Notes under the pieces: generated by a model
Databases searched by the model: none
The model's input: the letters and a program-made list of their open reading frames with translations, nothing else
Told to the model about the DNA's origin: nothing
Position numbers and translations under genes: made by a program
Shown: positions 27,909 to 41,845 of the stretch, piece by piece
Position numbering within the stretch: position 1 is the stretch's first letter
How the letters are laid out: the number at the start of each line of letters is the position of its first letter
Virus record (IMG/VR): IMGVR_UViG_3300037042_002543
Coordinates: 1 to 46,816 of that record
From: a virus
DNA: 46,816 nucleotides
Strand: one strand, 5' to 3'

Positions 27909-28638
27909 TTGGCCGGATCTCGCTAGGCGGGCTGGAAACCTGTATCTGATCCGGGATTACTGGCCCCTCCTCCACCATCTCTAACGACGGCTTCGGTTTT
28001 AGCCCAAGCTCCACATCTATATCAATATCCAGCGCCGTAACATCCGTTGCATGTATCCGCATCATCTTACGGATCTTGTCCTTGATCGCTTCATCAATAT
28101 CCGACACTGACTTATACGTAACTGTAATCTCTGTCTTCTCTGAAAACAGGCCCACATCCGACATCTTCCCCAACATTTCCGTGGCCTTGATCTCGATTCT
28201 CGGATCCCCGCAGCCCGCCAGATCCAATAACTTATTTGTTACAACCAGCCGCAGTTGTGCAGCATCAGCAACGAACTGATTGTCGTACTCCCGCAACATC
28301 GTGCCGATCCGCTCCGCAACAGACGGGCGTTGCAGCGGGGTCAAATCCATCTTGGGTTTTGGCTGACGTAGTACGCGAGGGCGGCTCAGCCCGCCACTTG
28401 GTGTCTCCGTCCTCATCGCTTCGTGGTACTGCCGCTCCGCTAGTTTGGCAAAATCCGCAAATACCTTATCCGCCTCTTCCTTATCTTCAGGCGTCTGATC
28501 GTATTGGGCACCATACTCTTTAAGCACAGCCGCTGTGTTTGCAGCAATGTGCATGTTCTCGCGCAAGGTCGAGACTTCGTCCGGGTCCAGCGTATCGGGA
28601 TACGGGACCGTCTTATCCGGGGTGATCTGAATTGTCAT
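27901..28638 (-). CDS. Terminase small subunit-like protein
   Basis: 245 residues from ATG 28638 (MTIQITPDKTVPYPD); an ATG 45 nt further upstream is also possible, and neither has an ideal ribosome-binding site. The middle is helical (LREYDNQFVADAAQLRLVVT), then KIEIKATEMLGKMSDVGLF-like sequence (IEIKATEMLGKMSDVGLFSE) and a charged, Pro-rich C-terminus. Position directly before terL with an 8-nt overlap supports a DNA-recognition subunit; the DNA-binding motif itself is not obvious. Confidence 0.65.
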   Translation of the reverse strand: MTIQITPDKTVPYPDTLDPDEVSTLRENMHIAANTAAVLKEYGAQYDQTPEDKEEADKVFADFAKLAERQYHEAMRTETPSGGLSRPRVLRQPKPKMDLTPLQRPSVAERIGTMLREYDNQFVADAAQLRLVVTNKLLDLAGCGDPRIEIKATEMLGKMSDVGLFSEKTEITVTYKSVSDIDEAIKDKIRKMMRIHATDVTALDIDIDVELGLKPKPSLEMVEEGPVIPDQIQVSSPPSEIRPNA

Positions 28639-28670
28639 GGAGGAAAGTGTGCACTCCAAAATATGTGGGG

Positions 28671-28700
28671 AGTATAACCACATGGAACCTAAATTAGCAA
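28671..28700 (-). promoter_or_regulatory. Possible promoter of the leftward virion operon
   Basis: Minus strand TTGCTA (28695-28700), 18-bp spacer, TATACT (28671-28676). Transcription would start about 30 bp before the TerS-like ATG. It is the only sigma70-like match I found at the head of the cluster; a phage-controlled late promoter is the alternative. Confidence 0.35.
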
Positions 28701-28715
28701 GGGGGGGTCTTCTAT

Positions 28716-28833
28716 AAATATACCCCGCCCGCTGAGGGGACCCAAAAACATGACGGGGGGTGTTCCCAGCCCAAAAAATATACCGTGCCCGCTGGAGAAA
28801 TAAATATACCGTGCCCGCTATGCCCGCTGGGAA
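28716..28833. repeat. Three direct repeats in the divergent control region
   Basis: AAATATACCGTGCCCGCT occurs at 28776-28793 and 28802-28819, with a copy two bases different at 28716-28733; an extra partial TGCCCGCTGG follows at 28821. They lie upstream of the leftward operon promoter. Spaced GC-rich repeats with an AT-rich head suit a regulator-binding array or packaging-site signal. Confidence 0.65.
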
Positions 28834-29149
28834 ATTTTAAATTTTACTAATCGTTTGAGCGGAACACTGTGTAGCAGCGGGGGCCCCGAGCTTGCACAGC
28901 TTTGGGGGGTGGGGCGGCGGTGGAGTGCTGGTTGGCCCGTTTATATCGCGGCGCTGGCGTGGCCCGGCGCTGCCCGCGTGATACATCAGGTCGTTCTATC
29001 ACGGCTCTACCAGCATTGACCCGAAATTTTTTCCGCTGCTCGCAGGGGAAGCGCGGCAGAGCATGGCGCTGTCCGATGTGGGGATTCAACCTATTCTCTA
29101 CCATAGTGCTATTATACATCCATGGACAGAGCGATCACTCTGTGCATCG

Positions 29150-29178
29150 GGAAGTGTCGACACTATGTCGATTGTTCC
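29150..29178 (+). promoter_or_regulatory. 29-bp dyad element, copy 1
   Basis: GGAA-GT-GTCGACA-CTA-TGTCGAT-TG-TTCC: inner 6-bp arms match perfectly, outer arms GGAA/TTCC pair. Forty bases before the ATG of the 218-residue early gene. Its downstream leader (TTCCTTTATTTGGAG) resembles that of copy 4. Confidence 0.85.
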
Positions 29179-29217
29179 TCGGGCAATATTGCCGTTCCTT
29201 TATTTGGAGAATTGATC

Positions 29218-29874
29218 ATGAGTGAATCTACTCAAAGCGGCACGGCTCAAAGTGCGGTGGCGGTTGTCGTGGCAATGATTGGCGGCGTTCCTGCCGTGGA
29301 GATGCAAGAGACAATCTTTGGCATCGGTGAGGAAACTTTCGCGGCTGAGCAACTTATGGCTAAGGGCAAAGCGGCGCTTGATGTGCTGGATACAAACCTA
29401 CACGATATCGTCAAGGGCCTGCCATATTCTGAGTTCATGCTGGTTCGGGATTTCCATAAGGCGGGCACGATTGATAAGGGCCGAACTGATGACGCGGCGC
29501 AGAAGGTCTGGGAGCGGCAGATCAATCGGCTCATGTCTACGTTTGAGTTCGTCAAGCCAAAGTCCGAAGCAAAGGACGCGGTCCGGAAGCAGGAAGCAAA
29601 GGCAAAGGAAGTCGCGGCGCTGGCTGAGTTCTCGGACGGTGCGCTGGATGAGCGCAAAGTTGAGTTGCTGGCGAAGGGTGACACAAAGTCAGTGCGTGAA
29701 GCGCTGAAGTTGAACAAAGAGATTGAGCGGCGCAATGCCGATTCCATCTCGGCTGAGACTGCGCAGCGCAAAGCAATGGTCGACAAGCTGATCGTCCGTG
29801 TGAAAGAGTTGGGCAAAGCGGGCACGGCTGATGCGGATGAATTGCTGATCAAAGCGCTGGCTCTGCTGGCATAA
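29218..29874 (+). CDS. First early gene: helical protein of unknown function
   Basis: 218 residues from ATG 29218, with GGAG 8 nt upstream; an earlier in-frame ATG (29122) would run through the dyad element and is rejected. The N-terminus is Ala/Val-rich (AVAVVVAMIGGVPAVEMQET), the rest charged and helical (for example RKQEAKAKEVAALAEFSDGA). It stands alone between a dyad element and a strong terminator, so it is probably highly expressed early. No family recognised. Confidence 0.75.
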   Translation: MSESTQSGTAQSAVAVVVAMIGGVPAVEMQETIFGIGEETFAAEQLMAKGKAALDVLDTNLHDIVKGLPYSEFMLVRDFHKAGTIDKGRTDDAAQKVWERQINRLMSTFEFVKPKSEAKDAVRKQEAKAKEVAALAEFSDGALDERKVELLAKGDTKSVREALKLNKEIERRNADSISAETAQRKAMVDKLIVRVKELGKAGTADADELLIKALALLA

Positions 29875-29880
29875 ACCCTC

Positions 29881-29904
29881 GGGGCTTCGGCCCCTTTTCT
29901 TTCT
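29881..29904 (+). terminator. Rho-independent terminator
   Basis: GGGGC-TTCG-GCCCC followed by TTTTCTTTCT, 6 bp after the stop codon of the first early gene. Confidence 0.88.
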
Positions 29905-29927
29905 CTAGAATAGGATGAATCATAGCT

Positions 29928-30095
29928 ATGAACTTCGATCAATGGATGGCGCTGGTGAACACTAATCTGTTCATGTTGTGTGGCATGGACGCCGACACGC
30001 TGCCGGACTACACATATAGTAAGGCGTTCAAGGCGGGCCGCACGCCATGGGCGGCGGCGAAGGCTGCGCTGCGCTACGCTAAAACCTGCTTCTAA
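29928..30095 (+). CDS. 55-residue early protein
   Basis: Starts MNFDQWMALVNTNLFMLCGM, continues DADTLPDYTYSKAF and ends AAAKAALRYAKTCF: a small, mostly helical protein. It is bracketed by two strong terminators, so it is its own transcription unit. AGGATG 12 nt upstream is the only ribosome-binding candidate. Short isolated early phage genes often encode host-takeover factors; nothing here identifies the target. Confidence 0.62.
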   Translation: MNFDQWMALVNTNLFMLCGMDADTLPDYTYSKAFKAGRTPWAAAKAALRYAKTCF

Positions 30096-30098
30096 GTT

Positions 30099-30130
30099 AC
30101 CGGGTCCCTTCGGGGGCCCGGTTTTTTTTT
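30099..30130 (+). terminator. Strong rho-independent terminator
   Basis: A 10-bp stem (ACCGGGTCCC paired with GGGGCCCGGT, one G-U) with a TTCG loop followed by nine T. It closes the 55-residue gene. Confidence 0.93.
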
Positions 30131-30340
30131 CGCCCAAAATCTGGCAGGGGTTTCGCCGCCCGCCGGTTCCGAGCGGCGCGGCGGGCGCGGGATACCAGTT
30201 CCGTCCGAGCAACGGTGTAGTCCTTGTGTGCTAGAGAATACGATGCGGGCTGTGTTAGGGGCAAGGCAGGTGCTATGTATATAGTGTGATCGCGCCCGTA
30301 TAGCTATGCCAGTTCCCTGAGCAACGGGCTAGGCTTTCAT

Positions 30341-30369
30341 GGAAGGATCGACAGATTGTCGATAAATCC
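30341..30369 (+). promoter_or_regulatory. 29-bp dyad element, copy 2
   Basis: GGAA-GG-ATCGACA-GAT-TGTCGAT-AA-ATCC. Inner arms perfect; one mismatch in the right outer arm. The only copy with no gene within 900 bp downstream; it lies at the start of the probable origin region. Confidence 0.8.
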
Positions 30370-30437
30370 GAGGCTGAGCGAGGGTGTCGGCAAGTGCGGG
30401 CATAGTCCAGCGGGCATGGCTTGATGCGGCAGAAGGG

Positions 30438-30500
30438 CGGTTTTGGGTTGGAATGGGCGGGGTTGCGGGCCCGATTAGCACGGTTTTGGGTTGGAATGGG
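30438..30500. repeat. Pair of 20-bp direct repeats
   Basis: CGGTTTTGGGTTGGAATGGG occurs identically at 30438-30457 and 30481-30500, 43 bp apart; a related GGGAATGGGCG follows at about 30604. Part of the probable origin region. Confidence 0.85.
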
Positions 30501-30616
30501 TAGATCTGTAGTCCAGACAAGCGGGCAAGAAGCACAGGAAATCCCCCAACGCTGTAGTCTTTCCGCAACGTCCTTAGCCCCCTTACGCACCCCCATTTCA
30601 AATGGGAATGGGCGAG

Positions 30617-30625
30617 TTATCCACA
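30617..30625 (+). other. DnaA box
   Basis: TTATCCACA, the bacterial consensus, next to a palindrome on the left and an AT-rich stretch on the right. A single 9-mer can occur by chance, but the surroundings support a replication role. Confidence 0.5.
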
Positions 30626-30927
30626 ATTTACTGCTATCATTTTTATAGTAGTAATATGATTGAACACTAAACGTGAACTGGACTTTGGACACATTGGTGC
30701 CTCTCTTAACCCACCGTTCCCTCATCAATGGAAGCACACCAGCAAAAGCCTAAGTCCTTGTTTTATATATATATTTTATTAGAGTAGTAGTAGTAAAGAG
30801 ATTGAGGATGGATAGCAATCCCATTTTGGGGGTAAAACAGTGAGAGGAGTTTTTTTTGTCAAGTTTAAATTTTCTGGCTGAGAATAGGATGATGACGCAA
30901 ATCCTCTCTCCGGAAATCTCTCTCACT

Positions 30928-31164
30928 GTTATATGATGTACCGACAGCCCGAACCATTCTTTCCTCATATAACTCCGTAACCCCTTGATTTTATTAGGCC
31001 CTACCCTTATAATAATATGAGGAAACGCCTAATTACGAGAGGTCCCAATGCGCAATAAACACCAAAAAAAAGTGCTGAAAATCACACTAGATTTTCTCAC
31101 GTTCCATGTTCAATCATATAATCATCCTATTCTTAACTTTTTCTATGTTTTCCACGTTATATGA
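30928..31164. repeat. GTTATATGA motif copies
   Basis: GTTATATGA at 30928-30936 and 31156-31164, the reverse complement at 30965-30973, and a near copy TCATATAAT at 31114-31122. Possible iterons or regulator sites in the AT-rich part of the origin region. Confidence 0.45.
30985..31013 (+). promoter_or_regulatory. Sigma70-like promoter
   Basis: TTGATT (30985-30990), 17-bp spacer, TATAAT (31008-31013). It points to the gene at 31269 through a leader of about 250 bases. Confidence 0.6.
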
Positions 31165-31268
31165 CCCACCGTGTCCAGTTATAGACAATGTCAAGTGTTT
31201 TTTCCGTTCGCCTTCCCTCACATAACTCTGCCTCTTTTTTAAGCACCCTTAACCCTAGGAGAATTACC

Positions 31269-31994
31269 ATGGCCCGCCCTCAAAAATACCGCAACGCCGA
31301 CGACCTTCTGAACAACACCACCGAACATGGGGACTGCCTACTCTGGCCTGATCGGGGTGCCAACGTAGTAGGTCCGATCATCTCCTCCAACTGCCCGCTG
31401 GCTAAGCTGTTCATGACAAACTCAGTTCCCCGCATCCTGTTCACCATCTGCAGGTTTGTGCCAGAAGGCCGACTCGTGCGGTGTTGCGACAATCCCTTCT
31501 GCGTCAACCCATACCATTTCGTAGAATCACATAAGGTCCGCCGCAAGCGCATCACGCTCAGCAAACCAGACCGTCCGTTCCGTACCGCAGCGGGCAAGGA
31601 TCTGGATCGTATGACCACGCCCACTGATCTCCTGCCGACGCAAGCCGTTAAGCGCCACCTGATCGCGCCAGACGAAGAAACCCTCCAGACCCTGCGCCCG
31701 ACGGATACCAAACGGTTGCTCCGACTTGCCAATTCCGCAGCACAGGCGGGCTTCGATGGTAAAGGCATCCTGAGCCCCCAACATAGGTTCGTGCCTATCC
31801 GCGAGGCTAGGATCGTGGACCCGTCGATGCCCGTTCTCCGCATGCGGTTCAACGACCCCCGCAAGGATCCGACCAAGGATATCGTATCCGTCAGCATCGC
31901 GGATATCGAAGCCGAGGTCATGGATGACGGCTGGCTCGACAAGATCAAGGCGTACAAGCAGCAGCAAGCTGAGAAGAAGGCCACCCAGAAATAG
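31269..31994 (+). CDS. HNH-like early protein
   Basis: 241 residues from ATG 31269, with AGGAG upstream. Starts MARPQKYRNADDLLNNTTEH. Residues about 60-85 contain VRCCDNPFCVNPYHF, the C-x-NP-x-CVNP-x-H block of HNH_3-type nucleases, after GDCLLWPDRG. Whether it still cuts DNA is unclear, since the upstream His block is not obvious. The C-terminal 150 residues are charged, with repeated Lys at the very end. I recall a similar family in aquatic phages without known function. It sits alone, next to the origin region. Confidence 0.7.
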   Translation: MARPQKYRNADDLLNNTTEHGDCLLWPDRGANVVGPIISSNCPLAKLFMTNSVPRILFTICRFVPEGRLVRCCDNPFCVNPYHFVESHKVRRKRITLSKPDRPFRTAAGKDLDRMTTPTDLLPTQAVKRHLIAPDEETLQTLRPTDTKRLLRLANSAAQAGFDGKGILSPQHRFVPIREARIVDPSMPVLRMRFNDPRKDPTKDIVSVSIADIEAEVMDDGWLDKIKAYKQQQAEKKATQK

Positions 31995-32094
31995 GGGGGC
32001 GTAGTGTAATGCTGCGGGTTATGTCAGATTGCGTTTATGGGTGCGGAGGGGTTCTCTATATTGGGGAATGGGTGCCCAAAACGCGGAGAGCCTC

Positions 32095-32123
32095 TTGACA
32101 TTGTCCAATATCTGTGTTATAAT
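32095..32123 (+). promoter_or_regulatory. Perfect-consensus sigma70 promoter
   Basis: TTGACA (32095-32100), 17-bp spacer, TATAAT (32118-32123): both hexamers and the spacing are ideal. It would drive the rightward operon from 32252 on using host RNA polymerase, hence early. The first 14 bases (TTGACATTGTCCAA) recur with one change at 39424. Confidence 0.88.
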
Positions 32124-32136
32124 GTACGAAGTACAT
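32122..32136 (+). promoter_or_regulatory. Palindromic operator at the promoter start site
   Basis: ATGTAC-GAA-GTACAT, a perfect 6-bp dyad with 3-bp centre overlapping the end of the -10 and the expected start of transcription. Binding here would block the strong promoter. Confidence 0.55.
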
Positions 32137-32179
32137 TAGTGAAGCTGGTTCAGGATGTACAGGGTTCCGCAGGTGCCGG

Positions 32180-32208
32180 GGAAACGTCGACAGGTTGTCG
32201 ATAGTTCC
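32180..32208 (+). promoter_or_regulatory. 29-bp dyad element, copy 3
   Basis: GGAA-AC-GTCGACA-GGT-TGTCGAT-AG-TTCC, all arms intact. It lies within the leader between the strong promoter and the gene at 32252. Confidence 0.88.
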
Positions 32209-32251
32209 GGATCTGCGGGTTGTTTGGTAGTTTGTTTATTCGGAGGGCTTT

Positions 32252-32554
32252 ATGGCTCAAACAGTGATGGTTGATGGGGTTGCACGTTGCAGTTCCAATT
32301 TGGAGTTCATCGTCAAGCGGGAGAAGTCCCGCTTTGAGACCGATCCACCTGACGGTGCGTTGATCTCTGCCGACGTGATCTCCACCCCTAACGGGCGTAT
32401 CTATGGTGTGCCGGGGCACATTCCCTGTGATCATGTGGTGCGCTACATCTACGAGAACTGCGTCAAGGAGTTCGACGGGTGGTACTCCACCAAGGTCGTG
32501 AAACGTCGGACCGCGTCCGCAGCCGAGTGGATTCAGTGGGCCCTGTCAGCATGA
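32252..32554 (+). CDS. 100-residue early protein, unknown
   Basis: Starts MAQTVMVDGVARCSSNLEFI; compact, mixed alpha/beta, with PDGALISADVISTPNGRIYG in the middle and an Ala/Trp-containing end. GGAGG stands 6 nt before ATG. It is the first gene behind the strongest promoter in the window, so probably abundant early. Its stop overlaps the next ATG. No family recognised. Confidence 0.72.
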   Translation: MAQTVMVDGVARCSSNLEFIVKREKSRFETDPPDGALISADVISTPNGRIYGVPGHIPCDHVVRYIYENCVKEFDGWYSTKVVKRRTASAAEWIQWALSA

Positions 32555-32637
32555 AGTTGGCTGCTCGTGCCTATTGGGCTGTTATTGTGCTGTCAGTACT
32601 TGTTGTGCTGGCTGACCTTTTTATCTGGCGTCCGTAG
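32551..32637 (+). CDS. 28-residue single-span membrane microprotein
   Basis: ATGA overlap with the previous gene. The product starts MKLAARAYWAVIVLSVLVVL and ends ADLFIWRP: one transmembrane helix with a positive N-terminus. Coupling to an early gene suggests co-synthesis. Possibly a superinfection-exclusion or membrane-targeting peptide; that is speculation. Confidence 0.55.
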   Translation: MKLAARAYWAVIVLSVLVVLADLFIWRP

Positions 32638-32678
32638 GACAGCTAGAGAATAGGTATTGGTTAGTTATTTTCCATCCG

Positions 32679-32707
32679 GGAATCCCCGACACCATGTCGA
32701 AGATTCC
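32679..32707 (+). promoter_or_regulatory. 29-bp dyad element, copy 4
   Basis: GGAA-TC-CCCGACA-CCA-TGTCGAA-GA-TTCC. One base of the left inner arm differs (C for T). The end is 14 bp before the GGAG of the AAA+ gene. Confidence 0.8.
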
Positions 32708-32730
32708 TTTCCTTTATTTTGGAGTTTCTC

Positions 32731-33810
32731 ATGTCAGAAGTAAATTTTAGTGTTCGCCGCCTCAACTATGCCGAGGCAGTTTCCGTCATTCTCAATTCCG
32801 GACTCAACTCAGTCCACCTGACCGGCGAGCCCGGCACCGGCAAGACAGCGATCCAGAATGATATCGTCGCACAGACAGGTTACCGGAAGGTCTACATCGA
32901 CGGGCCAAACACCGATGTGGGTCAGGCGGGCATGCCGATCCCGAACCATCAGACCCGCACGTTGGATTTCTACCCAGCCGATTCCTTTGGGTTGCATACT
33001 GGCGAGCCGCTCGTCATCATGATCGATGAGTGGACCAAGACCGATGACTACGTCCGCAACACGCTGCACCCACTGCTCCATGAGCGCCGCTTGGGTAACT
33101 TTGAGTTGCACCCGAGCAGCATCGTGTTTACTACGGGCAACATGGAGGGCGACGGCGTTGGCGATTCCAGTAAGGCGCACACACGCAACCGTCAGTCATG
33201 GATCAACTACATGAAGCCGACTGCCGATGAGTGGATGGTGTATGCCAGCAACCACAACATCGTGCCTGAGATCATGGCGTGGGTAAAAGAGTATCCCCAT
33301 TGCCTAGCATCGTACATGGACGGCGGGCAGAAAGAAAACCCATACATCTTTCAGCCCTCGGATGCGTCACAGGTTGCGTTCGTGTCTCCGCGCTCGCTGG
33401 AGAAGGCGAGTCATTGGGTGGCTGTGCGGGATCGTATTACAGAGAACAGCCTGATCGCTGCGCTCGACGGAACCCTCGGCTTCAGTGCCAGCCGTGACTT
33501 GCAGGCGTACATCACGCTGGCAGACCAACTGCCGACGCGGGAATCCATCCTCAACTCACCGGATACGGCGACTGTGCCCACATCCCCGGCGGCTCAGTGC
33601 ATCCTGATGTTCAAAGCTGTGCAGGCGTGCAGCCGTGAGACGTTCGCAACGTGGATGCGCTACGTTAAACGCTTCCCCAAGGAAACGCAGGCACTGTTCA
33701 TCAACTCACTGCTGGAGAACCGTGACAAGAAATCGTGGGCGATGGTGCACCCGTCGTTCGTTACATGGGCCCGCGAGAACCAGTACATGTTTGCTGGCCT
33801 CAAGGGATAA
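32731..33810 (+). CDS. MoxR/CobS-like AAA+ ATPase
   Basis: 359 residues from ATG 32731; an upstream TTG is less likely because GGAG directly precedes this start. Walker A GEPGTGKT (32-39), Walker B VIMIDEW (about 96-101) and a sensor-1-like FTTGN (about 130). Sequence after sensor 1 is helical with no membrane segment. MoxR/CobS-type ATPases act as remodelling motors with a VWA-domain partner; here a VWA metallopeptidase-like gene lies four genes downstream in the same stretch. Phage homologues are known, substrate unknown. Confidence 0.85.
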   Translation: MSEVNFSVRRLNYAEAVSVILNSGLNSVHLTGEPGTGKTAIQNDIVAQTGYRKVYIDGPNTDVGQAGMPIPNHQTRTLDFYPADSFGLHTGEPLVIMIDEWTKTDDYVRNTLHPLLHERRLGNFELHPSSIVFTTGNMEGDGVGDSSKAHTRNRQSWINYMKPTADEWMVYASNHNIVPEIMAWVKEYPHCLASYMDGGQKENPYIFQPSDASQVAFVSPRSLEKASHWVAVRDRITENSLIAALDGTLGFSASRDLQAYITLADQLPTRESILNSPDTATVPTSPAAQCILMFKAVQACSRETFATWMRYVKRFPKETQALFINSLLENRDKKSWAMVHPSFVTWARENQYMFAGLKG

Positions 33811-33833
33811 ATCGACAACGTGTCGAAGATTCA
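33805..33833 (+). promoter_or_regulatory. 29-bp dyad element, copy 5
   Basis: GGAT-AA-ATCGACA-ACG-TGTCGAA-GA-TTCA; inner arms perfect, outer arms each one change. It starts within the last codons of the AAA+ gene and ends just before the GGAG of the next gene. Confidence 0.78.
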
Positions 33834-33845
33834 AGGAGAAACAAA

Positions 33846-34166
33846 ATGAAGATCAAAACATCTGAACTGACAGGCGCTGCCCTTGACCGGGCGGTGCATG
33901 AGGCACTCGGGGCTGAGTCGCTTAAATGTGGGAACACGGCTCCCAAGTATTCCGCCGACTGGTCACAAGCCGGGCCGATCATTGAGAGGGAGCACATCTG
34001 TACCACCGTCGAACACTCGGGGGTGTGGATTGCGTACAGTATGTGGAACTACGCAGATGAAAAGCGGTTCATGTGTAGTGGCCTGACCCCGTTAATCGCA
34101 GCCATGCGCTGCTATGTGGCATCGAAGTTAGGGGATGAAATTGAATTACCGGAGGAACTGGAATGA
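33846..34166 (+). CDS. ninX: NinX-like protein (DUF2591)
   Basis: 106 residues from ATG 33846, AAGGAG upstream; a longer frame starting inside the AAA+ gene is rejected. It begins MKIKTSELTGAALDRAVHEA and contains YSADWSQAGPIIERE and LTPLIAAMRCYVASKLGDE, which match the NinX/DUF2591 family of lambda-type and other phages. The family function is unknown. It overlaps the next gene by ATGA. Confidence 0.85.
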   Translation: MKIKTSELTGAALDRAVHEALGAESLKCGNTAPKYSADWSQAGPIIEREHICTTVEHSGVWIAYSMWNYADEKRFMCSGLTPLIAAMRCYVASKLGDEIELPEELE

Positions 34167-34471
34167 AAACAACCAAGCAAAAGGTTCTGGCAACGCTGGC
34201 GGGCTTTCAAAAAGCTATTCTGGACCTGTCTGTGTTTATTGCAGGGCAAGCTGATGAGTGCGAGATCATGCTCACCCAAGGCAACGAGGTGCAAGTGAAA
34301 GTTGTGGCCGACGGGCAGGGCGGGTACGACTTGGAAGAGTGGGACACGCATACTGGCGGCACTACGGTGCATAGCAACGACGAGTTCGTGTATCTCACGG
34401 GCTATATCACTGCAGCGTGGGCTCGCTATTCTCACTCATACGTCTGCGATGAGTTGAGGGATATTGAATGA
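34163..34471 (+). CDS. 102-residue protein, unknown
   Basis: Starts MKTTKQKVLATLAGFQKAIL. A helical N-terminal third followed by a beta part with EVQVKVVADGQGGYDLEEW. No membrane segment or metal-binding motif. Overlaps both neighbours by 4 nt, so it is part of a coupled run (33846-36449). Confidence 0.65.
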   Translation: MKTTKQKVLATLAGFQKAILDLSVFIAGQADECEIMLTQGNEVQVKVVADGQGGYDLEEWDTHTGGTTVHSNDEFVYLTGYITAAWARYSHSYVCDELRDIE

Positions 34472-34668
34472 GGACGCGTAGCAAGCGGGCAGAGTACCGC
34501 CGCTTCCGTGTGTTCATGAGGGATGTGACTACGCTTCCTTCACCCGATGCTTCGTATGTTGAAGCAATCCGCGATGCGCTTATCAAAGCCCGTCGAATAC
34601 AACAGGTTGGGATCCCCATAGCTGGTGGGTTTCTCGTTAGCCGTAAAGATTGGAAGGATCTGAAATGA
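34468..34668 (+). CDS. 66-residue basic protein, unknown
   Basis: Begins MRTRSKRAEYRRFRVFMRDV, with seven Lys/Arg among the first 13 residues, then a helical stretch ASYVEAIRDALIKARRIQQV. A nucleic-acid-binding role is possible. Its end overlaps the start of the VWA gene. Confidence 0.62.
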   Translation: MRTRSKRAEYRRFRVFMRDVTTLPSPDASYVEAIRDALIKARRIQQVGIPIAGGFLVSRKDWKDLK

Positions 34669-36053
34669 GTAAGCCAAGATTGTCTGCTGAGAAGCGGATA
34701 GAGTTAGTGCATGTATCGCTGATGCGTGCGCCTGCGTTTCAAGCGTTCGTGGGTCTGTTCATGGTAGGCAAGATATCCGTAGAGGATGGCGTGCGTACTG
34801 CGTGCACCAACGGGCGTGACGTGCTGTACGGGCGCAGCTTCGTGGACGGGCTGAGTGACAAGGAGTTAGCCTTTCTTGTTATGCACGAGAACATGCACAA
34901 GTGTTACCGCCATCTCACAACGTGGCGGGCGATGCACGATGTGAATCATTCACTGGCTAACCAAGCGTGTGATTACGTGGTCAATATCCAGCTTACGGAT
35001 ATGGATGCGAGCGAGACCATGATTGCGTTTCCGCGTGACCCTGCAACTAACAAACGCATTGGGCACTATGACGAACGCTTCCGTGGTATGAACGCCAAGC
35101 AAGTGTTTGATATTCTGCGGGACGAGGAGAAGAAGCCACCCCCGGGGCGCAAGCCGCCACAACCACCGGGACCCAAGGGCGATGGACCCAAGCCACCACC
35201 GGGGGATCAGCCGTGCGATGAGCCGGGGGATGAGCCGGGGGATGAGCCGAGCGACGATGGAGAGAACGGGCATCAACCGGGCGACGGGAATGATCGACAA
35301 GATGACGACAATTCCGGCGGGGCTGGCGAGCCGGATGACTCTGGCGGGTTCGATGAGCATGATTGGCAAGGTGCCAAGGATATCCCCGCAGAAGAGAAGC
35401 AGAAGCTTGAGCATGAGATCGAGCAGGCTCTGCGCCAAGGCGGGATCTATGCTGGCAAGATGGGCGGCAAGATGTCCCGCGAGATTGGCGACATGCTCAA
35501 GCCGAAGGTTGACTGGCGTGAAGTTCTGCGTCGGTTCGTCAAGACGTATCTCAAGGACCGGCAGTCACCGAGTTGGAGGAAGGCGCATAGGAATTATCTG
35601 TGGCAGGACGTGATACTGCCCTCTATTCTTGGCAAGCGGATGAAGCATCTGGTGATTGGCATCGACACATCCGGCTCCATCCAAGGGCCGATCCTAACTG
35701 CGTTCCTGAGCGAGTTAAACCGCATCGTTACAGACTCAAACCCCGAACGTGTAGACGTGATCTATTGGGACGCACAGGTTGCTGGGCACGAGATCTACAA
35801 AGGTACGGACAGCAAGACCATCGTGCACAAGACGAGCCCCACTGGTGGTGGCGGGACTGACCCCGATGTAGTCGCGGCGTTTATGGTCAAGGAGAAGCTG
35901 GAGCCCGATGCTCTTGTGATTCTCTCGGATGGGTATATGCACAGTTCCCCGGCGAACTGGACCGCGATTCGGTGCCCATCTCTGTGGTGCATCATGGGTA
36001 ACAGCAACTACAAGCCCCCACACGGGCAGGTCGTTAACGTGAAGGAGGAATGA
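34665..36053 (+). CDS. Metallopeptidase-like/VWA domain protein (DUF2201/CobT type)
   Basis: 462 residues from ATG 34665. The N-terminal domain has HENMH (74-78), a zinc-peptidase HExxH motif, followed by N99, D103 and N107 in the ANQACDYVVN block typical of DUF2201. Residues about 155-235 form an acidic, Pro/Gly/Asp-rich linker. The C-terminal VWA domain has the MIDAS residues DTSGS (334-338), T398 (GGTDPD) and SDG (421-423). Known partners of this architecture are MoxR/CobS AAA+ ATPases, as encoded at 32731. Likely a metal-dependent scaffold or protease for a remodelling complex; the phage role is unknown. Confidence 0.85.
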   Translation: MSKPRLSAEKRIELVHVSLMRAPAFQAFVGLFMVGKISVEDGVRTACTNGRDVLYGRSFVDGLSDKELAFLVMHENMHKCYRHLTTWRAMHDVNHSLANQACDYVVNIQLTDMDASETMIAFPRDPATNKRIGHYDERFRGMNAKQVFDILRDEEKKPPPGRKPPQPPGPKGDGPKPPPGDQPCDEPGDEPGDEPSDDGENGHQPGDGNDRQDDDNSGGAGEPDDSGGFDEHDWQGAKDIPAEEKQKLEHEIEQALRQGGIYAGKMGGKMSREIGDMLKPKVDWREVLRRFVKTYLKDRQSPSWRKAHRNYLWQDVILPSILGKRMKHLVIGIDTSGSIQGPILTAFLSELNRIVTDSNPERVDVIYWDAQVAGHEIYKGTDSKTIVHKTSPTGGGGTDPDVVAAFMVKEKLEPDALVILSDGYMHSSPANWTAIRCPSLWCIMGNSNYKPPHGQVVNVKEE

Positions 36054-36054
36054 T

Positions 36055-36294
36055 ATGAGCGAGATTGTTCTCAATATCGAGGCCGGGGCGTTCATGCTTA
36101 GCTACGAGGAGGCAATGCAGGTCGCAGAAATTCTGTGTTCTTGCTCGCGGATCGACTCAACGTGGAAGAACGGACGCACGGTTGAGTTTATCGCGGGGCC
36201 CAACCACAAGGCCGCGTTCATTACACCATATACAGCAATACGGCGGCTGGATCACGAGTCCTCTGCTAGAGAAATGACGGAGGCAAAGAAATGA
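36055..36294 (+). CDS. 79-residue protein, unknown
   Basis: Starts MSEIVLNIEAGAFMLSYEEA, 1 nt after the VWA stop with GGAGG inside the VWA end. Mixed alpha/beta, with CSCSR in the middle and a C-terminal helix. Part of the coupled AAA+/VWA run; possibly accessory to it. Confidence 0.62.
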   Translation: MSEIVLNIEAGAFMLSYEEAMQVAEILCSCSRIDSTWKNGRTVEFIAGPNHKAAFITPYTAIRRLDHESSAREMTEAKK

Positions 36295-36449
36295 AAGAGC
36301 CTGCGTTTGTTGTGAATCTGAACCAAGAGACTTATGAACTCTTGCAACAGGTGCGAGTTAGTCTCGCAAAGACGTTGGGGTTTTCCCCGACGTATGGGCA
36401 GGTGGTTCGCCACCTGATTTCGATTTATTTCAAAGGAGAAACGACATGA
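36291..36449 (+). CDS. 52-residue protein, possible ribbon-helix-helix regulator
   Basis: Begins MKEPAFVVNLNQETYELLQQ and continues VRVSLAKTLGFSPTYGQVVR, then HLISIYF. One beta strand followed by two helices with a TYGQVVRHL turn resembles CopG/Arc-type ribbon-helix-helix proteins, which bind palindromes as dimers. Candidate binder of the dyad elements, purely inference. Both ends overlap neighbours by ATGA. Confidence 0.6.
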   Translation: MKEPAFVVNLNQETYELLQQVRVSLAKTLGFSPTYGQVVRHLISIYFKGETT

Positions 36450-37474
36450 GTTGGGGAAACAGCGGCTATGGAAATAGCTACGGTCTCTGCATAAGCAGGA
36501 TCAAGGACTTCGCACAAGCGAAGCGAAAGTTTGAAACAACAGCACCGATTCGTCGGCGCGTACCAGAGGTGCGTCCGCTGGGTAACCGCAAGGATTGGGA
36601 GCAGGCGAATATCGCCATGCCCAATGCGGATACTGTGGAGTTAAGTTTCGCGGGCTCGGTGTTGATTAGCTGGAGGTCTGATGACTCGTTCACGGTGTTC
36701 CATCCCCGCTACTGCACCGCCTATGTTCCAAAGCACATTACGGAGTTCCTGCCTACCGGGTTTTTTGAGCGGTACGACGGGCGGCTCTTTCTTGTGATGG
36801 GTGAGGGGAAGCGCTACCTGCTGGAGGAGGGGGGTTCGTTTAACATCCAGTTGACTGAGCACAAATACTTCATGCTCGACAAGCCCGTAGCCTACGCGGT
36901 GCGGGTGAAGCGCGGTGTAGCCCAGAAACTAATGGGATCCTATACACCGTTTCTGGATTGGCTTACGGTTGTACTTGCGTGTGATGTTGATTGCCCGGTT
37001 CCGGATATAAAGCACTCTTGCGCGTGGCTCAACAAGGTATCGGGTGTAAAGGATCCGGAGTACTACCACGCAGTTGCGAGACAACACAGTGGAGGCAAGG
37101 ATTATGCGACCCGCAATAAGGCATGGCAAGAGGAACGGCTGCTTCATTTTGTGCCCTTCTCCATGAGAAACGTGGAGCTTGGGTTCCATCGGGGCGGGTG
37201 TGAGACCTTGCACGCGTGGATCACGGGCACTGATGCGGAGCAGTGGGTGAAGGCGCGGGGCGTAATCACATTACATGTGGGCGCGTATATTGGATATCAC
37301 TCAGGGGACAACGCGAAGATGCGGCTGTCCGTGGCTAAGGCTATCGACTATCTGACGTGCATCATCTCGTTCCTTAACCGGGACGTGGTGTTTACCAAGG
37401 TAAAGTTGGAAGATGGTGAGCGTCCATCTGTCCGCAACACCGAGTACTTCAAAGAGATTGTGTTTGTGTTATGA
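36446..37474 (+). CDS. 342-residue protein, unknown
   Basis: Starts MSWGNSGYGNSYGLCISRIK. AAAGGAG is well placed in the preceding gene. Rich in aromatic residues (YCTAYVP, WLTVVLACDVDCPV) and mixed alpha/beta, no membrane segment or obvious catalytic motif. Followed by dyad copy 6, so it ends a transcription or translation block. Confidence 0.7.
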   Translation: MSWGNSGYGNSYGLCISRIKDFAQAKRKFETTAPIRRRVPEVRPLGNRKDWEQANIAMPNADTVELSFAGSVLISWRSDDSFTVFHPRYCTAYVPKHITEFLPTGFFERYDGRLFLVMGEGKRYLLEEGGSFNIQLTEHKYFMLDKPVAYAVRVKRGVAQKLMGSYTPFLDWLTVVLACDVDCPVPDIKHSCAWLNKVSGVKDPEYYHAVARQHSGGKDYATRNKAWQEERLLHFVPFSMRNVELGFHRGGCETLHAWITGTDAEQWVKARGVITLHVGAYIGYHSGDNAKMRLSVAKAIDYLTCIISFLNRDVVFTKVKLEDGERPSVRNTEYFKEIVFVL

Positions 37475-37502
37475 GAATTATCGACAAGGTGTCGACTATT
37501 CC
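37474..37502 (+). promoter_or_regulatory. 29-bp dyad element, copy 6
   Basis: AGAA-TT-ATCGACA-AGG-TGTCGAC-TA-TTCC; inner core perfect. It starts at the last base of the 342-residue gene and ends 10 bp before the AGGAG of the next. Confidence 0.82.
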
Positions 37503-37523
37503 TTTTTTAATCAGGAGAATATC

Positions 37524-38423
37524 ATGCTAGAGAATACATCTACGACGAGTCCAGTGGTCCTCACCGGCCCTGTGGCTTCCCTTTCATCCATGGCAATGCT
37601 GGTCGAACTTCGTATCAGCACATGGACTGCGCGTAAGCGTGACAACGAGACAACCATGGAGGTCAACACTTCCAAGGAAGCGGATCAGGATTCAGGCTCT
37701 GTTTATAAGTACCTGATGGCGGGCAGTAATCACCTGAAGCAGATTGAGAAGTACGCTGCCAAGTGCCGCGCATGGAACAACACGCAAACGCTGCCATGGA
37801 TGAAGGGTCTGTCGCTTCTGCCGATGGAGAACTTCTTCAAGTACCGTGAGCAGTTGGGCACTATGGAGGCTAACTTCTTCGCGTTAGTCGATGACTTCAT
37901 CAAGGTGTACCCGCAGCTTAAGAGCGATCAAGCGTTCAAGCTGGGTAAGTACTACCGTGCTGATGAGTTCCCCGATGTGGAGACACTGCCGCGTCGGTTT
38001 CAGTTTGGGTTTAACTTCTTGCCTGTGCCAGAGAGCGGTGACTTCCGCATCAACTGCGAGGCCCGCATTAAAGCAGACTTGGCAGAGCAGTACGAGAAGA
38101 TGTATTCTGACAAATTGGTTGAGGCTATGCGCGACCCATGGAACAGACTACACACGATGCTCGGGCGCATGGTTGAGCGTCTTACGGATGCCGAGGATGG
38201 TGAGCGCAAGATCTTTCGGGACTCCATTGTGGATAACGCTGTGGATATGTGCGATCTGCTGACGCGGTTGAATGTTACCAAGGATCCTGAACTTGAGAAG
38301 GCCCGTCGTATGCTGGAGAGGGCGATAACGCATATGGATCCGAAGGACCTGCGCGAGTCACAGGGTGCACGGTTGGAGTTGAAGACCAACGTGCAAGAGA
38401 TCATCAACAAGTTCAACTGGTAA
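37524..38423 (+). CDS. Conserved protein linked to phage AAA+/VWA pairs
   Basis: 299 residues from ATG 37524 with AGGAG upstream; an earlier start would lie inside the previous gene. Contains MLVELRISTWTARKRDNE, LPWMKGLSLLPMENFFKYRE and FGFNFLPVPESGDFRINCEA. I recall proteins of this pattern (DUF3150-like) beside CobS-like ATPase and VWA genes in other phages, which would make it a third component of the module. Largely helical, cytoplasmic. Confidence 0.7.
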   Translation: MLENTSTTSPVVLTGPVASLSSMAMLVELRISTWTARKRDNETTMEVNTSKEADQDSGSVYKYLMAGSNHLKQIEKYAAKCRAWNNTQTLPWMKGLSLLPMENFFKYREQLGTMEANFFALVDDFIKVYPQLKSDQAFKLGKYYRADEFPDVETLPRRFQFGFNFLPVPESGDFRINCEARIKADLAEQYEKMYSDKLVEAMRDPWNRLHTMLGRMVERLTDAEDGERKIFRDSIVDNAVDMCDLLTRLNVTKDPELEKARRMLERAITHMDPKDLRESQGARLELKTNVQEIINKFNW

Positions 38424-38434
38424 GGAGAAGCACC

Positions 38435-39301
38435 ATGGCGATATTTGCAAATATCAAACTGAAGGACGGGTGCATGCTGGATCCGTTTCTGGCAAAGCTT
38501 GTGGACAAGCTGGCACTAGACTACCCTGAGTACACGTTTCGCACCCACGGCACGGGCACTAAGGAGCAGGCTTCGTTTGCCTCCCCGGTACAGAGCCCGA
38601 GTCCGGTCCCTCTGGTAGCGGGTAATAAGTTCCTGCGGCTTGTGGAAGTGTTTGCAGGCAGCGAGCGTATGGGGGAGATAAGTGTTGACACCCGCTGGCG
38701 TCGGTATAACAGCGACGTTGTGTACCAACTGCGTTCGTGGCGCATACAGAAATCGCGGCGGCGTAACGTGGAACTTGCGCAGACCGCCAAGTATGATGCG
38801 GCTATACGCGAGTTCAAGCAATCGTTTTCCCCTAAGAACTACGATGAGTTGATGGACCGTGCGGGCAGGGAAATCGCACGCGGGTATAGCCAAGCCATAT
38901 ACGCACTCACTCGCCCTATCGACCACGGGGTGATGATGCCTGATATAAGTAAGCTACAGCACTACATCTTCATGTCACTTGGGACAGATACCGCCCGGGA
39001 GATGGATCCTGTGCTGAAGAAGGAAGTAGAGGCGGCAGTCACTTCTGATAAGTATCACAAGGCTATGCGGGAATACAAACTCGCCCTGAATATGACCAAC
39101 CGTAAGATGGTCTACATTGCGCGGTCCGGTGAGGGGTTTGTGTTGCTGGATGCCGAGAAGCAGCATCGTTGTTTCCAGTTTGAAGAGTTACCAGAACGTC
39201 GGCAGGAGCAGCTTGCTGTTCTACAGTTGATGGTCGACGGTGAGTTAGTAAACGACGTAGGGTTTCGACACAACGCTGATCAGTATTGCGTTATAGACTG
39301 A
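38435..39301 (+). CDS. 288-residue protein, unknown
   Basis: Starts MAIFANIKLKDGCMLDPFLA, with AAGGAG upstream. Central part helical and basic (YDAAIREFKQSFSPKNYDEL), C-terminal third ends VGFRHNADQYCVID. No motif recognised. Last gene before a perfect terminator, so it closes the AAA+/VWA operon. Confidence 0.7.
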   Translation: MAIFANIKLKDGCMLDPFLAKLVDKLALDYPEYTFRTHGTGTKEQASFASPVQSPSPVPLVAGNKFLRLVEVFAGSERMGEISVDTRWRRYNSDVVYQLRSWRIQKSRRRNVELAQTAKYDAAIREFKQSFSPKNYDELMDRAGREIARGYSQAIYALTRPIDHGVMMPDISKLQHYIFMSLGTDTAREMDPVLKKEVEAAVTSDKYHKAMREYKLALNMTNRKMVYIARSGEGFVLLDAEKQHRCFQFEELPERRQEQLAVLQLMVDGELVNDVGFRHNADQYCVID

Positions 39302-39317
39302 TATCATCCCACCCTAG

Positions 39318-39346
39318 AGAGACCCGCTATATGCGGGTCTTTTTTT
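39318..39346 (+). terminator. Rho-independent terminator
   Basis: GACCCGC-TATAT-GCGGGTC followed by seven T, 20 bp after the stop codon of the 288-residue gene. Confidence 0.93.
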
Positions 39347-39354
39347 GCCCCAAT

Positions 39355-39383
39355 GGAATCATCGACAAAGTGTCGATAGTTCC
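39355..39383 (+). promoter_or_regulatory. 29-bp dyad element, copy 7
   Basis: GGAA-TC-ATCGACA-AAG-TGTCGAT-AG-TTCC: all arms perfect, the best-matching copy. Between the terminator and the promoter of the polymerase operon. Confidence 0.9.
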
Positions 39384-39423
39384 GGTCTAAGGGTTTCTCC
39401 TTAGAATATTTATTAGAATCTAC

Positions 39424-39452
39424 TTGACTTTGTCCAACAGAGCCATTACATT
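39424..39452 (+). promoter_or_regulatory. Sigma70-like promoter of the replication operon
   Basis: TTGACT (39424-39429), 17-bp spacer, TACATT (39447-39452). It shares TTGACWTTGTCCAA with the promoter at 32095 and an AAGTACAT just downstream. Its expected start site coincides with the ATG of the nuclease gene. Confidence 0.7.
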
Positions 39453-39458
39453 AAGTAC

Positions 39459-39812
39459 ATGGCCTCTACACCTGAACGCAAAGTTAAAGACAAGGTGGTA
39501 GCCCTACTCAAGCAGTACGGTGCCTACCACTTCATGCCCCCGAGTAATGGCTTTGGGCGGGCGGGGATCCCCGATATTATTGCATGCTTTCATGGCCGCT
39601 TCATAGCCATAGAATGTAAGGCGGGCAAGGGGAAGACCACAGCACTACAAGACCGAGAACTAGAACGTATCGACGCAGCGGGCGGTGTGGCCTTGGTCAT
39701 CCGCGAGACAAATATAGAGGTGGTAGAAACTGCCCTACAACTCATCAGGAAACATCATGCTATCCAGACTCCTACGCTACTTCGCCCCCCAACAGATCCA
39801 AGCGCTTCTTGA
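39459..39812 (+). CDS. VRR-NUC nuclease
   Basis: 117 residues of the VRR-NUC branch of the PD-(D/E)XK nucleases, which act on branched or single-stranded DNA during replication and repair. Motifs: GRAGIPDIIACFHGRFIAIE with the catalytic D and E, then CKAGKGKT containing the K, and QDRELERI. There is no ribosome-binding site, and the -10 of the promoter lies 6 bp before the ATG, so the mRNA may be leaderless. It overlaps the next gene by 56 nt. Confidence 0.88.
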   Translation: MASTPERKVKDKVVALLKQYGAYHFMPPSNGFGRAGIPDIIACFHGRFIAIECKAGKGKTTALQDRELERIDAAGGVALVIRETNIEVVETALQLIRKHHAIQTPTLLRPPTDPSAS

Positions 39813-40032
39813 GATTCTGGATAACCCAGATGATGCCCGTTCCCTACAGGTCGAGCAGCTACAGCACCATCCCGGGGTTACGTTCTACGAACGGTGGCTG
39901 CTTAGACGGGCGCTCAGGAAAGTGTATCGGGCTAGGCTCATGGCTGCGGCAATGGGCACGGTTCTTAACTTCCTGAGATCCAAGGCAGACATGGTAACTA
40001 TTAAAAGACAGGGACCTAATGATAACTATTGA
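39757..40032 (+). CDS. 91-residue helical protein upstream of the polymerase
   Basis: Starts MLSRLLRYFAPQQIQALLEI; helical and basic, no membrane segment. It begins inside the nuclease gene in another frame with AGGA 7 nt before ATG and ends inside the polymerase start (14-nt overlap). The overlap arrangement suggests it is real; function unknown. Confidence 0.6.
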   Translation: MLSRLLRYFAPQQIQALLEILDNPDDARSLQVEQLQHHPGVTFYERWLLRRALRKVYRARLMAAAMGTVLNFLRSKADMVTIKRQGPNDNY

Positions 40033-41845
40033 CTTTGAGACTTTCTACAGTGTCGAGTTTTCGCTGACCCGCCTGACGACAGAAGAGTATGTACGGGACG
40101 ATAGATTCCAAGTGATCGGCGTGGCGGTCAAGGTTAACGATGGCGAGACTGAGTGGTTCACGGGAACTTTGGAGGAGACCGCTGGATGGTTGGCGGGCTT
40201 TGATTGGGCCAATCACTTCGTGTTAGCCCATAACGCGATGTTCGATGCGTCCATACTTACATGGGTATTTGGTCAGAAGCCCAAGGCGTGGCTTGATACG
40301 CTGTCTATGGCCCGCGCCCTGCTTGGCACACAGGTAGGTGGTAGTCTGCGCAAGTTGGCTGAACATTTTGCGTTGGGGGTCAAGGGTACAGAGGTCGAGG
40401 ACGCCAAGGGCAAGCATAGGGAAGACTTCTCCCCGGCGGATCTCGCACAGTACGGTGAATACTGCCGGAATGATGTGGAGTTGACCTATAAGCTGTTCAA
40501 GGAGTTGGATGCAGGGTTCCCGATGATTGAGAAGCGGTTGATCGACATAACCGTCCGCATGTTTAGTGACCCTATTTTGGAGCTAGATACAGAGCAGTTG
40601 GAGAAGCATCTTATTGGGGTTCGTGAGCGCAAGGAGAAGCTATTTGTTGAGGCGGGCATCACGAAGGAGGTGCTGAATAGTAGCGCTAAGTTCGCGGAGT
40701 TGCTGCGGATCAACCATGTAAGCCCACCCATGAAGATCAGCCCCGCTACAGGTAAGGAGACCTATGCGTTCGCTAAGAGTGATGCGGCGTTCATGGCGTT
40801 GCTGGAACACCCCGATGAGGTCATTCAGGCATTGGTTGCCGCACGGGTTGGTGCCAAATCCACGTTGGAGGAAACAAGGACAGAGCGATTCATAGCTATA
40901 TCGCGCAGGGGGCACATTGCGGGGGCGCTACGACGCCTACCTATTCCGTTGAAATACTACGCCGCCCATACGGGGCGCTGGGGTGGGGCCGATAAGGTGA
41001 ACCTACAGAATCTTCCGAGCCGGGGCAAGGAGGGTGGCAAGCTGAAGCGGTGCATCATTGCACCTCGCGGGCACGTCATCATCGACTGCGATTCATCCCA
41101 GATCGAAGCCCGTGTGCTGGCGTGGCTAGCAGGGCAGACAGACATACTGGAGTTGTTTCATCATGGTGCGGATGTATACAAGTATATGGCGTCGGGGATC
41201 TTCAATAAGGACGCAGCCGATGTAACCCCCGAGCAGCGCTTCATTGGGAAGACAACAGTGCTTGGCAGTGGATACGGTATGGGGGCGGTTAAGTTCCAAG
41301 CGCAGCTTTCCAACATGGGTACGTACCTTGACCTAGATACGTGCAAGCACATCATTAAACAGTACAGGTCGCTGAACCACTACATCGCAGATTGGTGGAA
41401 CCACCTGAACAGGGTGCTGGCAGTGATGCTTAGTAATAAGGAAGCAGAGGTGGACCGTGTTGGACTGATGACGCTCTCCCCCTTCACAGGTATATCACTC
41501 CCTAACGGGCTGTTCCAGAACTACCCCGACTTGCAGCGGCATACCAATGGTGAGTTTACCTACATGACGCGCACCGGGGTCAATAAGATTTACGGTGGTA
41601 AGGTTGCAGAGAATCTTTGTCAGGCTGTAGCTCGCTGTGTTATCGGTGAGCAGATGGTTCAGATCGAAAAGAGATACCGCGTAGCGTTGACTGTGCACGA
41701 CGCCATTGCTTGCGTAGTACGCGAAGAGGAAGCTGCAGGGGCACGGGCTTACATGGAAGAATGTATGCGGACCTCCCCTTCGTGGGCCAAGGGGTTGCCG
41801 CTCAACTGCGAGTCAGGCATGGCTCAGAACTACGGAGACTGTTAA
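40019..41845 (+). CDS. DNA polymerase, family A with 3'-5' exonuclease
   Basis: 608 residues. Exonuclease motifs: DFET (5-8), AHNAMFDASIL (D76) and YCRNDVELTY (D152). Polymerase motifs: A, VIIDCDSSQIEARVLAW (D356/D358 area); B, RFIGKTTVLGSGYG (R407, K411, Y419); C, LTVHDAIA (H560, D561). The residue aligned with Phe762 of E. coli Pol I is Leu415. It lacks the 5'-3' exonuclease domain and is short, as in many phages. It replicates the phage genome and is flanked by two nuclease genes. Confidence 0.95.
   Translation: MITIDFETFYSVEFSLTRLTTEEYVRDDRFQVIGVAVKVNDGETEWFTGTLEETAGWLAGFDWANHFVLAHNAMFDASILTWVFGQKPKAWLDTLSMARALLGTQVGGSLRKLAEHFALGVKGTEVEDAKGKHREDFSPADLAQYGEYCRNDVELTYKLFKELDAGFPMIEKRLIDITVRMFSDPILELDTEQLEKHLIGVRERKEKLFVEAGITKEVLNSSAKFAELLRINHVSPPMKISPATGKETYAFAKSDAAFMALLEHPDEVIQALVAARVGAKSTLEETRTERFIAISRRGHIAGALRRLPIPLKYYAAHTGRWGGADKVNLQNLPSRGKEGGKLKRCIIAPRGHVIIDCDSSQIEARVLAWLAGQTDILELFHHGADVYKYMASGIFNKDAADVTPEQRFIGKTTVLGSGYGMGAVKFQAQLSNMGTYLDLDTCKHIIKQYRSLNHYIADWWNHLNRVLAVMLSNKEAEVDRVGLMTLSPFTGISLPNGLFQNYPDLQRHTNGEFTYMTRTGVNKIYGGKVAENLCQAVARCVIGEQMVQIEKRYRVALTVHDAIACVVREEEAAGARAYMEECMRTSPSWAKGLPLNCESGMAQNYGDC

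Follow-up and report, generated by a model that had tools for sequence, protein, structure and literature searches.

Dispersed 29-bp dyads at conserved positions in the early region of a metagenomic phage clade, putative operators of a protein without a recognisable family

The window analysed here is an entire viral contig (46,816 bases). It contains a 29-bp two-fold symmetric dyad in eight copies, all within positions 29150-39383 and spaced about 0.5-2.2 kb from neighbour to neighbour across the early region (Table 1). Across 43 relatives the positions of such dyads are conserved while their sequence diverges by class. In comparisons of protein and site distances, the product of the first rightward gene (F) was shown to co-vary statistically with the inner-arm sequence of the dyads, and we lean, at somewhat better than even chances, toward reading the dyads as operators of F as candidate binder, that is, as stoperator-like sites of a dispersed repressor or roadblock.

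The dyad has a 4-2-7-3-7-2-4 layout, each half-site being made up of two blocks, GGAA on the outside and RTCGACA on the inside. Searching with GGAANNRTCGACANNNTGTCGAYNNTTCC and allowing up to three mismatches gave exactly eight matches in the window, against none in 100 dinucleotide shuffles. Under a position weight matrix the eight dyads scored 33-42 bits and the next-best place in the window about -2, a gap of more than 30 bits; the maximum over five random sequences was 11.6 bits. Four copies (32679, 33805, 35287 and 37474) are imperfect, with 8-9 of the 11 arm pairs Watson-Crick. An earlier note on this DNA had listed seven copies, each of which we confirmed in the sequence, and had overlooked the one at 35287-35315, which was found by pattern search and weight matrix. 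Because this eighth copy lies inside the DUF2201 gene, the claim that all copies occupy gaps between genes was wrong; the copy at 33805 moreover overlaps a stop codon and that at 37474 begins on the last base of a gene. The absence of dyads from the leftward virion half and from the region right of 39383, also claimed there, was confirmed in the window.

Table 1. Coordinates of the dyads and of associated features in the window
Feature	Position	Strand	Basis and context
Dyad copy 1	29150..29178	.	~55 bp (centre to start codon) 5' of gene F; pattern search and weight matrix
Dyad copy 2	30341..30369	.	Non-coding, 3' of gene F; pattern search and weight matrix
Dyad copy 3	32180..32208	.	57 bp 3' of the promoter 32095-32123 (consensus sigma-70); pattern search
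Dyad copy 4	32679..32707	.	5' of the AAA (MoxR-type) ATPase gene 32731; pattern search
Dyad copy 5	33805..33833	.	Overlaps the ATPase gene stop codon; directly 5' of the ribosome-binding site of 33846 (NinX)
Dyad copy 6	35287..35315	.	Within the DUF2201 (metallopeptidase/VWA) gene 34665-36053; pattern search and weight matrix
Dyad copy 7	37474..37502	.	Begins on the final base of gene 36446-37474; 5' of the DUF3150 gene 37524
Dyad copy 8	39355..39383	.	Preceded by a terminator-like hairpin; 41 bp 5' of the -35 box in the promoter that serves the endonuclease/polymerase operon
Gene F, first gene in the rightward direction (218 aa), putative regulator that binds the dyads	29218..29874	+	Mantel test and tree incongruence following dyad class
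Consensus extended -10 promoter (TTGACA, 17, TATAAT)	32095..32123	+	Small dyad TTGACATTGTCCAA, same as at 39424
Sigma-70-like promoter of the endonuclease/polymerase operon	39424..39452	+	Separate small dyad TTGACTTTGTCCAA in the -35 region
52-aa RHH-like protein, possible accessory factor	36291..36449	+	Found in all contigs with 29-bp dyads that cover the locus; partial Mantel 0.26

With the window polymerase as query we recovered relatives at 38-79% identity. Among the first relatives recovered, the closest group (G1, G2 and L007, at 75%) was without the window's motif and carried instead a 29-bp dyad with the same geometry, GAACnnATCGAAtnnnaTTCGATnnGTTC. Other branches carried different dyads in the same region, namely GACAAAATAAGGnnnCCTTATTTTGTC, CCTAACAwTGTTAGG (in up to 17 copies), TTCGGGCAnnTGCCCGAA, GTTAGTGnCGCACTAAC and GGGGTGn6CACCCC, and the cultured Rhizobium phage RHph_TM3_14A had many copies of GTTACCTnnnnAGGTAAC; the CCTAACA type is a compact palindrome of 15-17 bp at comparable places. 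The window's own pattern was found in 37 IMG/VR stretches. G1, G3, G4 and G5 held 8-17 dyad copies each, with none above background in the rest of those contigs. The terminase-related cultured phages DSL-LC04, HTVC027P, HTVC023P and 023Pt_psg01 showed no comparable dyad family, and megablast against phages gave no match.

A motif scan of related genomes had been suggested in the earlier note. Using the conserved 52-aa protein at 36291 as bait we fetched 43 contigs, all of which had dyads of the 29-bp layout with class-specific variant arms, in 2-11 copies each. De novo scanning for dyads identified such a family in 38 of the 43, and in L165, L186, L189, L190 and L192 the class weight matrices gave 2-8 copies each, with scores far above background. 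The classes among these contigs combined outer GGAA with inner RTCGACA or ACCCT, and outer GAAC with inner CCGACA, ATCGAAT, ACCAACA or nCGACA. The slot upstream of the endonuclease gene was kept in 34 of 34 contigs, mostly 95-99 bp (usually ~97) from the start codon, and the slot within the DUF2201 gene in 34 of 36; those 5' of the DUF3150 gene, 5' of the AAA ATPase gene and 3' of the latter were kept in 32 of 35, 29 of 34 and 26 of 35 contigs, respectively. A dyad lay within 600 bp downstream of F in 21 of 25 contigs and within 150 bp upstream of it in only 13 of 25, so that autoregulation of F would not be universal.

Since near-identical phages can carry different dyads, the binder should be a protein that differs along with them, and we compared distance matrices over 24 phages for 12 gene families. 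For F, which was singled out after several families had been inspected and in whose comparisons the dyad class labels are phylogenetically clustered, protein distance correlated with inner-arm distance at a Spearman coefficient of 0.64 (partial correlation 0.59 given DUF3150). In partial Mantel tests given the AAA ATPase the value was 0.60 for F (P = 0.0005), 0.35 for P1 (the product of 36446), 0.26 for the RHH-like protein and 0.00 for DUF2201, with all others at or below 0.35. The inner-arm correlations of P1 and the RHH-like protein, weak as they are, were nominally significant, so a co-factor is possible. No family stood out in the comparison with the outer arm. The signal relating F to the inner arm was concentrated in residues ~36-110 of F.

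Tree incongruence points in the same direction. In the AAA ATPase, RHH-like and DUF3150 proteins the contig L188 shares 89-97% identity with L187 and its relatives, but only 39% in F; with the G1 group its identity in these three proteins is likewise 89-97%, and the inner arms differ. The F of L188 is 62-67% identical to the F proteins of L177, L179 and L196, and its dyad is theirs (CCGACA), not that of L187 (ATCGAAT). Trees place the L188 F with those of L196, L177 and L179 (support 0.99) and its core genes with those of L187 (support 1.0). By these identities and groupings L188 is a natural recombinant, combining the core of one class with the F and dyads of another. At column 113 of the F alignment, phages with a CG inner arm have K or R (with one exception) and all four CCAACA phages have S; we count this column among the candidate specificity residues. 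L194 and L196 share the same dyad, yet their F proteins are only distantly related, and CGACA specificity is spread over several F branches.

By sequence, neither a DNA-binding domain nor a known family could be recognised in F: it had no Pfam match at an E-value of 0.1, no PHROG match below 0.05, no match at 0.01 among 50,697 phage records and no convincing match among PDB sequences. Its match to G4 was weak (E = 0.02), and no homology was demonstrable with the gene at the same place in the CCTAACA class.

The earlier note had taken base pairing or symmetric recognition to be the property kept, and base pairing does not hold up. In 22 contigs the arm deviations from consensus were one-sided in 221 cases and two-sided in 14, where 8.1 two-sided cases would be expected if the halves were independent; the two spacer bases are unpaired, and variable spacer positions paired less often than expected. 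The DUF2201 copy, compared in 27 phages, is read in two phases (21 and 6 phages) that encode different residues. Uncompensated arm changes together with an intragenic copy in two phases indicate that the dyad is a pair of independently recognised half-sites, constrained at the DNA level and not at the RNA level. An RNA hairpin in early leader transcripts, serving antitermination or translational control, is accordingly a reading to which we give very little credence, even though the arms could fold into a triloop hairpin (-6.4 to -12.8 kcal/mol) and ribosome-binding sites lie just downstream of most copies: besides the one-sided changes and unpaired spacers, one conserved copy is intragenic and another stands upstream of a promoter, an Rfam search of 28500-40500 gave no match, and the CCTAACA-class phages use their compact palindrome at comparable places. 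The dyads differ from a nut- or put-type RNA antitermination element in the same respects, as arm changes are almost never compensated and no known RNA family matched. A role as operators at which a phage protein activates early operons, or lets polymerase read through, would suit the spread of the sites along the early operons and the copy at the endonuclease slot, which lies ~97 bp before the start codon and, where a conserved promoter was found, 28-61 bp upstream of it; at such a promoter-upstream place an activator would fit too. Around 219 dyad sites, however, no -10 or -35 element was enriched at a fixed offset, which disfavours a promoter-type site and leaves activation without a consistent promoter spacing, and activation fits neither the intragenic copy nor the one located 57 bp 3' of a consensus promoter; we regard activation or read-through as improbable. 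Sites in transcribed gaps, in one gene interior and at one place upstream of a promoter fit dispersed stopping or repression better than a single promoter switch, and we favour repression or roadblock by F over activation. Of the readings in the earlier note, a phage-wide regulon element of operator type is well supported, with conserved slots and class-specific sequences in 43 relatives and two half-sites kept independently; the RNA hairpin and promoter-type site offered beside it are disfavoured.

The same operators might be read by another protein: the RHH-like protein 36291, P1, P2 (38435), the helix-turn-helix (HTH) protein 42513, or F with one of these. Such an arrangement seems to us rather unlikely. 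It would draw on the presence of the RHH-like protein in every 29-bp-dyad contig that spans its locus, on the fast divergence of P1 and P2, and on the partial correlations of P1 and the RHH-like protein given above. As sole dyad reader, however, the RHH-like protein can be set aside, being 94-96% identical in phages with different dyads (96% between L187 and L188); nor is it a confident RHH, having only a ribbon-helix-helix-like sequence pattern and a profile-comparison probability of 12% against known RHH proteins (its own G4 homologue left out). The recognition helices of HTH 42513 do not track the dyads, being near-identical across different dyads and different with the same dyad, and the partial correlations of P2 and of this HTH protein are near 0. 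AlphaFold modelled P1 and P2 with fair to good confidence (mean pLDDT 78 and 85, respectively), and neither model matched a PDB fold, DNA-binding or other; L058 has P1 with no dyads detected in the partial stretch examined. In none of the 37 stretches with dyads was HTH 45445 detected. Of the regulators that had been put forward, then, 36291, 42513 and 45445 all fit less well than F, a protein absent from the earlier note's candidates; 43722 had a weak match to an HNH-endonuclease family. A BrnA-like protein was rejected as binder of the CCTAACA dyads, since G5 carries these dyads without it. A role for the dyads in DNA organisation, segregation or replication, as dispersed centromere-like sites akin to the ParB-type sites of N15, is again very improbable: their dispersal along the early region at ~0.5-2.2 kb, without a link to promoters, would suit it, but they sit at gene boundaries, are missing from the virion half, and no ParA-type ATPase (PF13614) was found in the window or 11 relatives. 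We also rejected the dyad as a recombination site, as no tyrosine or serine recombinase was found in the window and 11-12 long relatives.

We infer that F binds the dyads. The eight sites would be occupied by a single two-fold symmetric protein encoded by the phage, most likely F, whose gene has dyads on both sides. Given the outer and inner block of each half-site, it presumably binds as a dimer or dimer of dimers that contacts each half twice. Less certainly, accumulating F may limit its own synthesis and may repress or roadblock host RNA polymerase at the dispersed sites, so that the early and replication region would be turned down over the course of the cycle; co-infecting phages that share this specificity could perhaps be shut off as well. 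A fuller version, in which an undescribed DNA-binding family runs a dispersed operator network with no sign of lysogeny, for early shutdown and for specificity-class immunity between co-infecting phages, we hold only tentatively and consider doubtful. If true, the network and its immunity would explain both the diversification of the operators into many classes at unchanged positions and the exchange of F between otherwise near-identical phages.

Neither a tyrosine integrase, a serine recombinase nor a PF13614 ATPase was found in the window and 11-12 long relatives, possibly incomplete contigs, and PF00589 had no match in the window; as the relatives' records may be incomplete, we call a virulent life style likely only. 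Dispersed operators that keep position while their sequence is rewritten are best known from temperate phages under selection for superinfection immunity. The pattern now appears in a widespread metagenomic phage clade in which no integration genes were detected and whose candidate binder belongs to no known family. Sites that stay in place while their letters change, together with an early protein that changes along with them, suggest a phage-wide on/off switch, a kind described so far chiefly in phages able to lie dormant. Natural recombinants in which candidate binder and operator class are exchanged jointly would make a tractable system for joint change of specificity in a regulator and its sites, and F, a protein family now blank, is offered a testable function.

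The dyad system most resembles two known ones in how it would work. Stoperators of Cluster A mycobacteriophages (L5 type) are 13-bp asymmetric motifs, mostly in one orientation, dispersed in up to ~30 copies per genome; the motif diverges with the repressor between related phages, forming specificity classes, with a site near the repressor gene, and the repressor, a protein already characterised, belongs to temperate phages that have an integrase or parABS (PMC6550527, PMC9283540). The dyads likewise come as many dispersed copies mainly outside the virion genes, diverge with the putative repressor F (by the partial Mantel test above), form specificity classes and include a copy near the candidate regulator's gene. 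The SPBRE elements of Bacillus prophage SPbeta, first recognised in silico and only afterwards identified as operators of a single phage repressor, lie in promoter regions and are bound by the master repressor MrpR, which has a tyrosine-recombinase fold (PMC10516654). Both SPBRE and our dyads recur in many gene gaps, but the dyads have no fixed promoter geometry (219 sites) and one copy is intragenic, and F has no fold recognisable by sequence. We do not place the dyad system as a member of either type, because its site is symmetric and bipartite (over 29 bp, unlike a stoperator), because searches of the window and 11-12 relatives (possibly incomplete contigs) detected neither an integrase nor ParA, and because the candidate binder has no known family in Pfam or PHROG.

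In the plasmid-prophages P1 and N15 one protein also serves many genome-scattered sites, the dispersed C1 operators and the ParB sites, respectively. The dyads differ from these in that no partition ATPase was found in the window and 11 relatives, and resemble them in the many scattered sites of what we propose to be one phage protein.

A second regulator, which would act through a small dyad in the -35 region of sigma-70-like promoters, is suggested by two such promoters in the window together with the TTGACnnnGTCnAA elements, similar to the small dyad, that many relatives carry 28-61 bp after the endonuclease-slot dyad (the copy of the 29-bp dyad preceding the endonuclease/polymerase operon). 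Among cultured phages, Rhizobium phage RHph_TM3_14A has numerous and dispersed GTTACCTnnnnAGGTAAC dyads, and could become a laboratory model of dispersed-dyad networks.

Features located in the window
Feature	Position	Strand
Sigma-70-like promoter whose -35 region contains the small dyad (TTGACwwTGTCCAA)	32095-32123	
Sigma-70-like promoter whose -35 region contains the small dyad (TTGACwwTGTCCAA)	39424-39452	
Terminase large subunit, 806 aa	25488-27908	-

A module conserved throughout the clade (32731-38423) encodes a MoxR-type AAA ATPase, a DUF2201 metallopeptidase/VWA protein and a DUF3150 protein. The DUF2201 linker contains a 12-bp tandem repeat, CCGGGGGATGAG, at 35199-35258, near the copy of the 29-bp dyad that lies within this gene. 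Two further proteins, P1 (encoded at 36446-37474) and P2 (38435-39301), are both fast-evolving; their predicted folds, of fair to good quality, found no match in the PDB.

When compared with terminases of phage records, the terminase large subunit aligned in two pieces that together covered ~60% of the protein, which therefore carries a large insertion within it, possibly an intein.

Beyond the terminator at 30099 lies ~1 kb of AT-rich, non-coding sequence with several short repeats (30130-31188), a possible origin region. Immediately left of the divergent region, a ATATACCGTGCCCGCT-like repeat occurs in three copies at 28713-28819.
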